A stretch of 29,616 bases of DNA from a virus. The DNA lies in the IMG/VR virus record IMGVR_UViG_3300024496_000085, positions 1-29,616 of that record; one strand, given 5' to 3'. Shown in pieces: positions 18,218 through 22,865 of this stretch (positions are counted from its first letter, which is position 1; every line of letters starts with the position of its first letter). Under the pieces are notes generated by a model. That model did not search any database and was not told where the DNA came from. It worked only from the letters and a program-made list of their open reading frames with translations. The position numbers and the translations under genes are program-made.

Positions 18218-18946
18218 TCACACAAAGCACCCCCGTTGTATGAGCACCGCAAGAGACGGTGGTAGCGATCCATAGCGGTTGAGGTGAAGCCGAAACGCTT
18301 GAGCAATAGCCGATTGATTGACACCTTGATTGGCTAGCGTTGTGAGCGATCGAGGATCGGTTGAGATATCGTAACCATATGTTCGACTCATTGACTGTAT
18401 CTCCCTTTTAATCCCTATCGTGTTATCATTAACCGTCTCTATGACTTCATTAGTCTTTTTAATAGGTTGAATATCTTCTGTGCTATCCGTTGCGTATGGA
18501 ATAGAAGCCTTCAATTCCTCGTCTGTTGGTATTGGATCGTTTGAGGAAAAGAGCACCTGATATCTGCTCGTCATCCATTTAGAGGATTGTTGCGGAAACC
18601 ATTTAGGTTGTAACTTCCTAATCATTCCGGCGTTGATTAACCGCTTGAGGCTAGCCGATACTTGTGTTGCGCCTAAGCCGGAACAATTCCTGATTGTCTC
18701 ATAGGTCGGATAAGAGACGCCTTGCCTGCTAACGAATAAACCTAACGTGCATAGCAAGAGCAAATCATTAGGGCTTAAATCAGGACTATAAACCGCCCTT
18801 GAAGGAATGATTGAATATCTTCTGCCGCTCGGATCACCACGGTGATTGACGCCTTCACGCGCCTTCGGGACCGTTCTCAATCCCCTAGCCGTCACCTTGC
18901 GCCGGATGCGCTCTCTTTTCTTTTCCTGATTATCCTGCAAATTCAA
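18218..18946 (-). CDS. Winged-helix replication-initiator-like protein
   Basis: About 242 aa. A basic N-terminus (KKRERIRRKVTARGLR) is followed by a winged helix-turn-helix at about residues 45-120: IPSRAVYSPDLSPNDLLLLCTLGLF, VSYPTYETIRNCSGLGATQVSASLKRLINAGMI, and SRYQVLFS as the wing. This layout is seen in plasmid and phage replication initiators and in some repressors. The C-terminal part (TDPRSLTTLANQGVNQSAIAQAFRLHL) looks helical. Start is uncertain: only TTG codons are available at 18946 and 18940, and AAGG is better spaced for the latter. It is transcribed divergently from the ArdC operon, with its own terminator. Confidence 0.65.
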   Translation of the reverse strand: MNLQDNQEKKRERIRRKVTARGLRTVPKAREGVNHRGDPSGRRYSIIPSRAVYSPDLSPNDLLLLCTLGLFVSRQGVSYPTYETIRNCSGLGATQVSASLKRLINAGMIRKLQPKWFPQQSSKWMTSRYQVLFSSNDPIPTDEELKASIPYATDSTEDIQPIKKTNEVIETVNDNTIGIKREIQSMSRTYGYDISTDPRSLTTLANQGVNQSAIAQAFRLHLNRYGSLPPSLAVLIQRGCFV

Positions 18947-20817: not shown

Positions 20818-20827
20818 AAACGAATTA

Positions 20828-20854
20828 GGGGGCCGATAAAGCCCCCTTTTTCTT
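20828..20854 (+). terminator. Intrinsic terminator of the ArdC operon
   Basis: GGGGGC (20828-20833) pairs perfectly with GCCCCC (20841-20846) around a 7-base loop and is followed by TTTTTCTT. A classical plus-strand rho-independent terminator, placed between converging operons. Confidence 0.88.
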
Positions 20855-21356: not shown

Positions 21357-22214
21357 CTAAACTCTCTTTTGGGCGCGAGTAAACCCGTCCAATGCCTTGA
21401 TTATATGTGGCGAGTTGAAAGCTATGTTTTTCGAGCGGCAGAAGTCCCGAAACCTGTTAGCAATCCAATCAGGATCGTGGCCTGTATTGTGCGCTCGGAT
21501 GCGGGATGCCCATGGCGTATATTCAACCGAGCCATCACTAGGAAAGTTGGCTTCCGGTGTGGGTATTGCCATGGCGTTCTGACTCGGCGCGGCGGGGGCA
21601 ACTTCCACGGGGGCCACATCCTCCCACCTCCTTTGGTTCAACCATGTGGCTGGGTGCGGGATGTAGTTAATATCCTCTGAGAACTTATGGCTGCCGAGGG
21701 AAGCGATGATTACGCTGGCTTCCGTGCTCTGCACCGCTTTGACCCACGCTTTCTCTGCGGCTCCTTTGCCAACCTTCCTCGGATAGCCAAGCCAAAACTT
21801 ATTAAAATCTTCAGACTGAGACGCTCGAACTTGTTTCGAGCAAGATATAGGTTTTTCTTTACTGGTTATTATTACAGGTTTGGGTGGCATGGTGCTACCC
21901 TCGGGGGTGGCATGGTGCGATCCTAGGGGTGGCAAGGTGCTATCCCCCATATGCAAGCCGTATGAATACCCCAATGTTCGCCCATGTTCGTCCAAGACCA
22001 GACGGCGAGAAAGCAAACCTTTTTGCTCTAAAGATTGGGTAGCCCTTCGAACTGTGTCGCGGCTCAAACTTGTATCATCTGCAATCTTATCAAGGCTCGG
22101 AAAGCACTGACCTGTATCAGCATTATGCCGATCAGCAAGCGCCAGTAGTGTGAGCTTCTCTGCGGATGATATATCTCGGACGGTCCACGCCCAATGTGTT
22201 GCCTTGTGGGACAT
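21357..22214 (-). CDS. Lambda O-like replication initiator (winged helix plus replisome-organiser C-domain)
   Basis: A 285-aa protein. The N-terminal winged HTH (about 1-88) has SAEKLTLLALADRHN, CFPSLDKIADDTSLSRDTVRRATQSLEQKGLLSRR and a wing at LGYSYGLHM. The linker at 90-111 is encoded by three DNA iterons. The C-domain begins near 136 with FNKFWLGYPRKVGKGAAEKAW, then IPHPATWLNQRRWED, a pattern common in phage replisome organisers. It binds the origin and recruits host helicase loading, by analogy with lambda O. Start ATG with GAGG eight bases upstream. No helicase loader such as lambda P is seen downstream. Confidence 0.82.
   Translation of the reverse strand: MSHKATHWAWTVRDISSAEKLTLLALADRHNADTGQCFPSLDKIADDTSLSRDTVRRATQSLEQKGLLSRRLVLDEHGRTLGYSYGLHMGDSTLPPLGSHHATPEGSTMPPKPVIITSKEKPISCSKQVRASQSEDFNKFWLGYPRKVGKGAAEKAWVKAVQSTEASVIIASLGSHKFSEDINYIPHPATWLNQRRWEDVAPVEVAPAAPSQNAMAIPTPEANFPSDGSVEYTPWASRIRAHNTGHDPDWIANRFRDFCRSKNIAFNSPHIIKALDGFTRAQKRV
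21823..21945. other. Candidate phage replication origin inside the initiator gene
   Basis: Order along the DNA: a perfect hairpin GCTCGAA-CTTGT-TTCGAGC (21823-21841), an AT-rich tract (21842-21880), then three 19-bp iterons (21882-21945). Lambda ori lies inside gene O with the same parts: 19-bp dyad-symmetric iterons in the O linker and an AT-rich unwinding region on the C-terminal side. Here the AT-rich tract is likewise on the C-terminal coding side. Inference from layout. Confidence 0.65.
21882..21945. repeat. Three 19-bp tandem iterons with dyad symmetry
   Basis: Copies at 21882-21900, 21905-21923 and 21927-21945. Consensus GGGTGGCAwGGTGCkAyCC, where copy 1 is nearly self-complementary (GGGTgGCA-tgg-TGCtACCC). 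Starts are spaced 23 and 22 bp. Only three to four positions vary between copies, which is more constraint than the encoded Gly/Pro/Ser-rich linker would need. Confidence 0.8.
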
Positions 22215-22226
22215 TGCCTTCGCCTC

Positions 22227-22255
22227 TTGAAAAGGTAGGCATGATCGTCCATAAG
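22227..22255 (+). promoter_or_regulatory. Possible promoter of an antisense RNA
   Basis: TTGAAA (22227-22232), 17-base spacer, CATAAG (22250-22255), on the plus strand just upstream of the minus-strand initiator start. Five of six and four of six matches to sigma-70 boxes. Would start transcription near 22262, directed away from the initiator gene. Confidence 0.45.
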
Positions 22256-22261
22256 GTTAGA

Positions 22262-22342
22262 CAACACGCCTACGGCTGCACAACGTAGGTTTAGAGGCGG
22301 CTACTGTTTTGCGTTTTCCAGTAGTCGCCTCATCTTTTTTTT
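22262..22342 (+). ncRNA. Candidate OOP-like small RNA
   Basis: Predicted ~80-nt transcript between a sigma-70-like promoter and a strong terminator, opposite in strand to both flanking genes and to the initiator leader. It contains a first hairpin CCTACG-(9-base loop)-CGTAGG at 22269-22289 and ends in the terminator hairpin. No ORF of note. Lambda OOP RNA is also ~77 nt, starts upstream of gene O, runs away from O and ends at the 3' end of the neighbouring gene. Here the T-run overlaps the stop of the DnaA-like gene. Confidence 0.5.
22294..22342 (+). terminator. Strong plus-strand intrinsic terminator in a minus-strand operon
   Basis: GAGGCGGCTACTG (22294-22306) pairs over 13 bp (one G-T wobble) with CAGTAGTCGCCTC (22319-22331), 12-base loop, then ATC and eight T residues (22335-22342). 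The T-run is only on the plus strand, although both neighbouring genes are on the minus strand. Confidence 0.8.
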
Positions 22343-22865
22343 AATCTAGTTTGAACCCGTTAGCAATCTTCTCTTCCATCTTACGGTAGCCATGAAGCAC
22401 CGAAGTGTGGTCCTTGTTGAGCATCCGGCCTACTTGCATCAGGCTCAGGCCCAGTTCCCGTCTTAGCCGATAGTAAATCTCAAACCTACAATCGACGAAC
22501 TTTTGACTCTTGGCTTGGCCAGCCACGTCTATGAATGTCATGCCATGCTTTACGAGAACCTTAGCGATCACATACCGAGCCGACTGCCGACCGGAAAAGC
22601 CCTTCATCAAGAACGCTGTCTTCCGAAGGAACTCATTCTCGCCATAGATTTGAGTCCAGACCTGATCCAGCATGGCGCGGAGAGCAATCTCTTCTTCCGG
22701 CTCTTGTGGCGCTAGATTGATGACGTCTCTGACTACTGGCTTCGGTGGCTCTATTGGCTCAGGCAGCTTCTCTTGTGGCTTTACTGGCACGATTGGCCGA
22801 GAGGGATAGAACTTCTCCCGTAGGGCTTTGTGCTTCTCGTATGAATATGCGTATGCCGTTTCCAT
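22341..22865 (-). CDS. Stand-alone DnaA domain IV-like DNA-binding protein
   Basis: A 174-aa protein. A Pro-rich linker spans about residues 20-55 (PVKPQEKLPEPIEPPKPVV). A small helical region follows, and the C-terminus matches DnaA domain IV: FEIYYRLRRELGLSLMQVGRMLNKDHTSVLHGYRKMEE, with the signature KDHTSV at 151-156. The AAA+ ATPase of DnaA is missing. Similar short proteins occur in phages of alphaproteobacteria. It may bind DnaA-box-like sites and regulate replication or transcription. Start ATG at 22865 has GGGTGA upstream. It overlaps the RusA gene by 107 bases, long for this operon. Confidence 0.8.
   Translation of the reverse strand: METAYAYSYEKHKALREKFYPSRPIVPVKPQEKLPEPIEPPKPVVRDVINLAPQEPEEEIALRAMLDQVWTQIYGENEFLRKTAFLMKGFSGRQSARYVIAKVLVKHGMTFIDVAGQAKSQKFVDCRFEIYYRLRRELGLSLMQVGRMLNKDHTSVLHGYRKMEEKIANGFKLD

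Follow-up and report, generated by a model that had tools for sequence, protein, structure and literature searches.

What is the role of a small RNA predicted directly upstream of a phage replication initiator, on the strand opposite to the initiator gene? The question is raised by a viral record of IMG/VR (IMGVR_UViG_3300024496_000085), of which the whole stretch of 29,616 nucleotides was analysed and is called the window here. The first-pass annotation had proposed that a candidate OOP-like RNA, encoded between the initiator gene and a DnaA-like gene, could regulate either the initiator leader or the mRNA of the DnaA-like gene. Plasmids limit their copy number by antisense RNA acting on the initiator leader, while an apparently lytic phage is not expected to need such a limit. 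Based on the structures modelled below, it is probable that a cis-encoded antisense RNA limits the translation of this phage initiator.

The antisense element and its neighbourhood

The antisense element on the + strand at 22227-22342 is confirmed as real at the level of sequence. The promoter pair TTGAAA-17-CATAAG, the 13-bp terminator stem and the T8 run were found where the first-pass annotation had placed them (Table 1). The hairpin between promoter and terminator is present but is 7 bp, not 6 bp, long if the closing G.U pair is counted. The predicted 80-nt RNA (22262-22341) folds with -33.2 kcal/mol (z = -6.3; 0/200 dinucleotide shuffles equally stable). The sequence thus supports a small antisense RNA which has its own promoter and terminator and is opposite to both flanking genes, which are encoded on the - strand. 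Its OOP-like placement was also borne out: the element lies upstream of an O-like initiator and would be transcribed away from it.

The -10 box of the window is weak, matching 4 of 6 consensus positions. With a descriptor combining promoter, hairpin and terminator, about 0.4 sites were found per 1.66 Mb of Markov-1 sequence, and 400 shuffles of the window gave 2 matches. The element was not listed by a promoter and terminator scan of the window; in our reading, this is because the loop limit of the scanner (8) is smaller than the loop of 12, and because its -10 rule needs a final T. The Rfam search, with gathering and permissive thresholds, showed no family matching the window element. A DNA search of phage records gave no match.

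Table 1. Features of the antisense element, the initiator leader and the flanking genes, in window coordinates.
Feature	Position	Strand	Remark
-35 box TTGAAA	22227-22232	+	17-bp spacer to the -10 box
-10 box CATAAG	22250-22255	+	antisense promoter 22227..22255
predicted ~80-nt antisense RNA	22262..22342	+	putative 5' end
P1 hairpin	22268-22290	+	CCTACG/CGTAGG and closing G.U, 7 bp
terminator stem-loop T	22294-22331	+	13 bp including one G.U, 12-nt loop
T8 run	22335-22342	+	after the terminator stem; intrinsic terminator overall 22294..22342
initiator mRNA leader, proposed target	22215..22341	-	gap from the stop of the DnaA-like gene to the initiator ATG
P2 pre-emptor stem	22235..22273	-	5' arm mostly antisense-covered; 3' arm overlaps the 5' arm of P3
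P3 hairpin	22215..22241	-	Shine-Dalgarno AGAGG in the 3' arm
initiator gene	21357..22214	-	HTH_36; phrog_270 replication initiation protein
upstream gene, DnaA domain IV-like	22341..22865	-	Pfam Bac_DnaA_C, 33.8 bits
three 22-23-bp iterons	21882..21949	.	inside the initiator gene; candidate origin

Besides HTH_36, only weak matches to GntR and DnaD_N were seen for the window initiator in Pfam, and these matches do not assign it to the RepA_N type. The stop codon of the DnaA-like gene (22343-22341) lies within the antisense T-run. The product of this gene is a short phage protein whose sole recognizable part is the DnaA domain IV-like C-terminus, and no PHROG family matches it. The iterons are ~300 bp away from the antisense element.

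The 29.6-kb record, possibly a fragment, was searched for a tyrosine integrase, a serine recombinase and a ParA-type ATPase, and none was found. Its portal protein shares 63.5% identity with the one of Methylophilales phage MEP301, which hints, as a weak inference, at a methylotroph host. MEP301, the closest annotated phage by portal protein, has no descriptor match. Other observations in the window are a second HTH_36 protein beside the packaging genes (18218-18946, -), a protein with a biotin-protein-ligase N-terminal (glutamine-amidotransferase-like) domain, unusual for a phage (26480-27121, +), and a terminator-like hairpin readable from both strands where the + and - gene blocks converge (20827-20847).

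Conservation of the element in related phages

Relatives were collected by searches with the initiator and DnaA-like proteins in viral contigs and by DNA patterns. The same layout was observed in 14 further distinct phage loci, leading to 15 members including the window. Type A includes the window, L001, L003, L006, L008, L014, and L091; type B includes L009, L010, L011, L012, L200, L202, and L206. L143 is more diverged and stands outside both types. A near-identical contig (L004/L007/L094/L203) was left out of the count. The members are related, so the counts below are not independent events.

In all 15 members the element is antisense to the initiator gene and directly upstream of its start. 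The promoter pattern TTGNNN-17-[T/C]ANNNN is likewise present in 15/15, with a spacer of exactly 17 bp throughout; the relatives have TATAAA, TATAAG, TATGAT or TATAAC as the -10 box at this spacing. Loss of the stem or the T-run in relatives, which had been named as a refutation, was looked for; the stems, the T-run and the promoter are all conserved. The compensatory changes that had been suggested as a check were found in both P1 and T. In P1, 98.1% of cells are paired over the 15 members. Its covariation score is 0.242 versus 0.081 for shuffled alignments (0/500 shuffles as high), and every slid register leaves at most 50% of cells paired. In the terminator stem, compared in 12 members, there is no A.C mismatch, and more than one pair type is seen at 10 of 13 positions. 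These pairs were counted on a hand alignment, as MAFFT misaligned the terminator arms of type B.

The predicted RNAs of all 15 members fold into two stem-loops with a short spacer, ~80 nt in total. The segment of P1 and T folds better on the antisense (+) strand than on its complement in 15/15 members. Summed over the members, there are 46 G.U pairs on the antisense strand versus 6 on the complement.

The gene upstream of the element differs between members. It is DnaA-like in the window, L001, L003, L006, L008, and L143, a C5-methyltransferase gene in L014 and L091, and RusA-like in type B; in the relatives, these genes were assigned by inspection of their sequences and not by a family search. 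The DnaA-like protein of L143 is a different protein of the same kind at the equivalent place. The upstream stop codon is within ~5 nt of the T-run in all members except L012, where the gap is 139 nt. The RNA is kept while the upstream gene is swapped, which points to the initiator leader, and not the neighbour, as the putative target. Of the two targets that had been offered, the leader is thus the better one, and the DnaA-like mRNA is unsupported.

The initiators also vary. By their N-terminal domains they fall into five groups: the window with L009-L012; L001; L003/L006; L008/L014/L091; and L200-L206. The initiators of the window, L001, L003, L008, and L200 share the C-terminal region and differ in the N-terminal domains, while the antisense module is kept. 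These sequences suggest modular exchange at the start of the initiator gene behind a kept antisense module. An iteron array of 23 bp, similar to that of the window, is present in L009.

Among 82 distinct regions upstream of related initiators, an antisense terminator was observed in 12 and a sense terminator in 3, with ~1.6 expected from background. In most annotated phages with a related initiator, the genes overlap and leave no gap of this kind, which indicates that the element is not general to this initiator family. Four of the 10 matches to the 17-mer CGTAGGTTTAGAGGCGG (L089, L090, L095, and L097) have a different, mutually similar sequence without the element, and were dropped; they are probably coding matches. 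L135 was likewise dropped.

A predicted switch in the initiator leader

On the other strand, the initiator mRNA leader can form two structures, P2 and P3 (Table 1). Every leader examined has the Shine-Dalgarno sequence within P3, whose own sequence differs between types. In type A, P2 uses the P1-forming region, and the pairs P1/P2 and P2/P3 are mutually exclusive. In type B and L143, a further hairpin lies between the 5' arm of P3 and its upstream pairing partner. No U-run was seen after P3 in the leaders examined, and the expected effect is therefore on translation and not on transcription termination.

In 13/13 leaders tested, the mRNA strand gives a more stable P2 and a more stable P3 than the complement does, with sense z-scores of -2.4 to -5.4 for P2 and -1.8 to -7.3 for P3; P2 of the window has -4.6 on the sense versus -0.9 on the antisense strand. 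This disfavours DNA operators overlapping the promoter as the source of the P2 and P3 palindromes. Because P1 and T fold better on the + strand and P2 and P3 on the mRNA strand, two interlocked sets of structures appear to have been selected on opposite strands.

Partition functions show that the probability of P3 in the window rises from 0.01 in the free leader to 0.89 when the antisense region is occupied. Similar changes are seen in L003 (0.09 to 0.92), L006 (0.18 to 0.92), and L009 (0.37 to 0.97). In L001, L008, L014, L091, L010, L011, L012, L143, and the Pontimonas phage phiPsal1 described below, P3 dominates at equilibrium even without antisense, so the ON state in those members would need nascent, kinetic folding. 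While the leader is nascent, the probability that the 5' arm of P3 is paired with the antisense-covered region is 0.66-1.00. When the covered region was shuffled, the observed value was reached in 0-7 of 100 shuffles for type A and L009, and in 10/100 for L012, 30/100 for L010, 40/100 for L011, and 60/100 for L143. The nascent P2 pairing is thus unusual in type A and L009, marginal in L012, and not unusual in L010, L011, and L143. As a model, the switch is well supported in type A, including the window, and less so in the other members.

Computation gives the promoter, the two hairpins of the RNA and those of the leader, which exclude each other, and the opposite strand preference of the two sets; for transcription, binding and the regulatory outcome we infer the following course. 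Each phage genome would make the two-hairpin RNA of ~80 nt from its own sigma70-type promoter, and the antisense level would follow gene dosage. Judging by the gene layout, the initiator would be part of a leftward polycistronic message. While the leader is still being made, P2 would form first, by pairing of the 5' arm of P3 with the P1-forming region upstream, and the ribosome site would stay open. If the antisense RNA occupies that region, P2 would be blocked, P3 would close over the Shine-Dalgarno sequence, and translation would stop. As phage copies build up, replication initiation would be expected to come under negative feedback. If this is true, gene dosage would meter initiation in these phages early in the infection, and there would be a mechanistic context for lambda OOP, an RNA encoded near the origin whose part in replication has been a matter of long debate. 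One puzzle stands against the model: a phage in which no lysogeny gene was found would be limiting its own replication.

Other explanations give a different weight to the same features. It is possible, but unlikely, that the promoter matters and not the RNA; the initiator operon would then be transcribed less across the origin because of convergent transcription from the antisense promoter, a mechanism proposed for lambda pO versus pR. The position and spacing of the promoter are the same as in the sequence before lambda OOP (TTGAGT-17-CATAAT), and in lambda the loss of pO raises transcription from pR while the oop RNA itself seems of little importance for replication (PMC3985674). Convergent transcription, however, leaves the covariation of P1 and T, the opposite polarity of the hairpins and the overlap of P2 and P3 unexplained. 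A terminator that only blocks stray rightward transcription, with a functionless small RNA, would fit the strong terminator and the weak -10 box of the window, but not the conservation of the promoter at fixed spacing or the covarying P1 outside the terminator; we consider this very improbable.

We give equally little credence to a true OOP counterpart, which would act, for example via RNase III, on the mRNA of the upstream gene at its 3' end. The position and direction match OOP, and the T-run extends to the stop of the DnaA-like gene. The first-pass annotation had offered this gene as a possible target in the way that OOP targets cII, which is not supported: in the members examined, the RNA stops at or just past the stop codon, and the gene is swapped in relatives. 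The overlap with the upstream gene is at most ~5 nt versus 52 in lambda (PMC5869508), the upstream gene in relatives is a methyltransferase or RusA gene, and L012 has its 139-nt gap. A role for the RNA at the nearby origin, as a primer or in transcriptional activation, is hardly to be expected. The iterons are close by, inside the initiator gene, and a primer role was once proposed for OOP; the RNA would nevertheless be transcribed away from them and end at a strong terminator, and the primer role in lambda was abandoned (PMC3985674). Antisense control of initiator translation is the reading compared below with known systems.

Comparison with known antisense systems

In the literature searched, which included few subscription papers, no antisense RNA on a phage initiator leader was found. 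A similar arrangement is present in the Pontimonas phage phiPsal1 (MG835450), called clearly lytic by its authors (PMC6106888). Upstream of its repO (L252:411-550), a 7-bp P1, a 13-bp terminator, P2 and a P3 holding the Shine-Dalgarno sequence are observed, and their sequence is unrelated to the window; the -35/-10 pair is less clear, with a 15-bp spacer. Strong promoter-hairpin-terminator arrangements, antisense upstream of phage-type initiators, were also seen in Clostridia loci (L115:3873-3982, L122:4473-4575, and L131:4257-4364 (- strand)), and these too are unrelated in sequence to the window element. L086:3307-3412 in a viral contig is a descriptor match, antisense upstream of an initiator. 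It and the region upstream of 3001 in L216/L217 show antisense terminators with possible promoters before initiators in viral contigs.

By analogy, the plasmid copy-control antisense RNAs (RNAI of pSK41, RNAI of pT181, and the ctRNA of repABC) appear mechanistically closer than OOP acting on cII. RNAI of pSK41, from staphylococcal RepA_N plasmids, contains two stem-loops and a short spacer within ~83 nt, and is counter-transcribed to the initiator leader ~100 nt before the start (PMC5703833). Its binding is proposed to induce a hairpin that sequesters the RBS, without transcription attenuation, and the origin is central within rep (PMC5703833). The predicted phage RNA resembles it in its length of ~80 nt, its two stem-loops and its complementarity to the initiator leader, and the leader can form a ribosome-site hairpin that is favoured by occupancy in the window, several members being P3-dominant in both states. 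Unlike the pSK41 system, the predicted one belongs to a phage with an HTH_36 initiator.

RNAI of pT181 is ~87 nt, and in its target a pre-emptor pairs with the 5' arm of a hairpin just before the start codon (PMC5703833). The predicted action of P2 on P3 resembles this pre-emptor, but the pT181 hairpin is a transcription terminator, whereas phage P3 lacks a U-run. The repABC ctRNA is antisense between the upstream gene and the initiator RepC, and induces an intrinsic terminator in the leader (PMC3155836). The phage element shares this kind of gap and the initiator leader as putative target. It differs in that no terminator follows P3, and neither a RepC domain (Pfam) nor a ParA-type ATPase is found in the record, partition genes being a feature of repABC.

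Lambda (L138) has the promoter TTGAGT-17-CATAAT, a 6-bp hairpin before the OOP terminator, and iterons inside the O gene. The window element is thus like OOP in position, direction, size, the TTG-17-CATAA promoter, the order of hairpin and terminator, and the iterons within the initiator gene. OOP overlaps cII by 52 nt and targets its mRNA (PMC5869508), and in lambda the promoter rather than the oop RNA is held to matter for replication (PMC3985674). In contrast, the upstream gene of the phages studied here is variable and overlapped by at most ~5 nt, and the leader carries the predicted switch. A wider reading, which we put forward tentatively and as the less probable outcome, is that dosage-sensing antisense control of the initiator, known from plasmids, is recurrent and partly convergent in phages, including those without signs of lysogeny, and that lambda OOP is a derived case whose target moved to the neighbouring gene.
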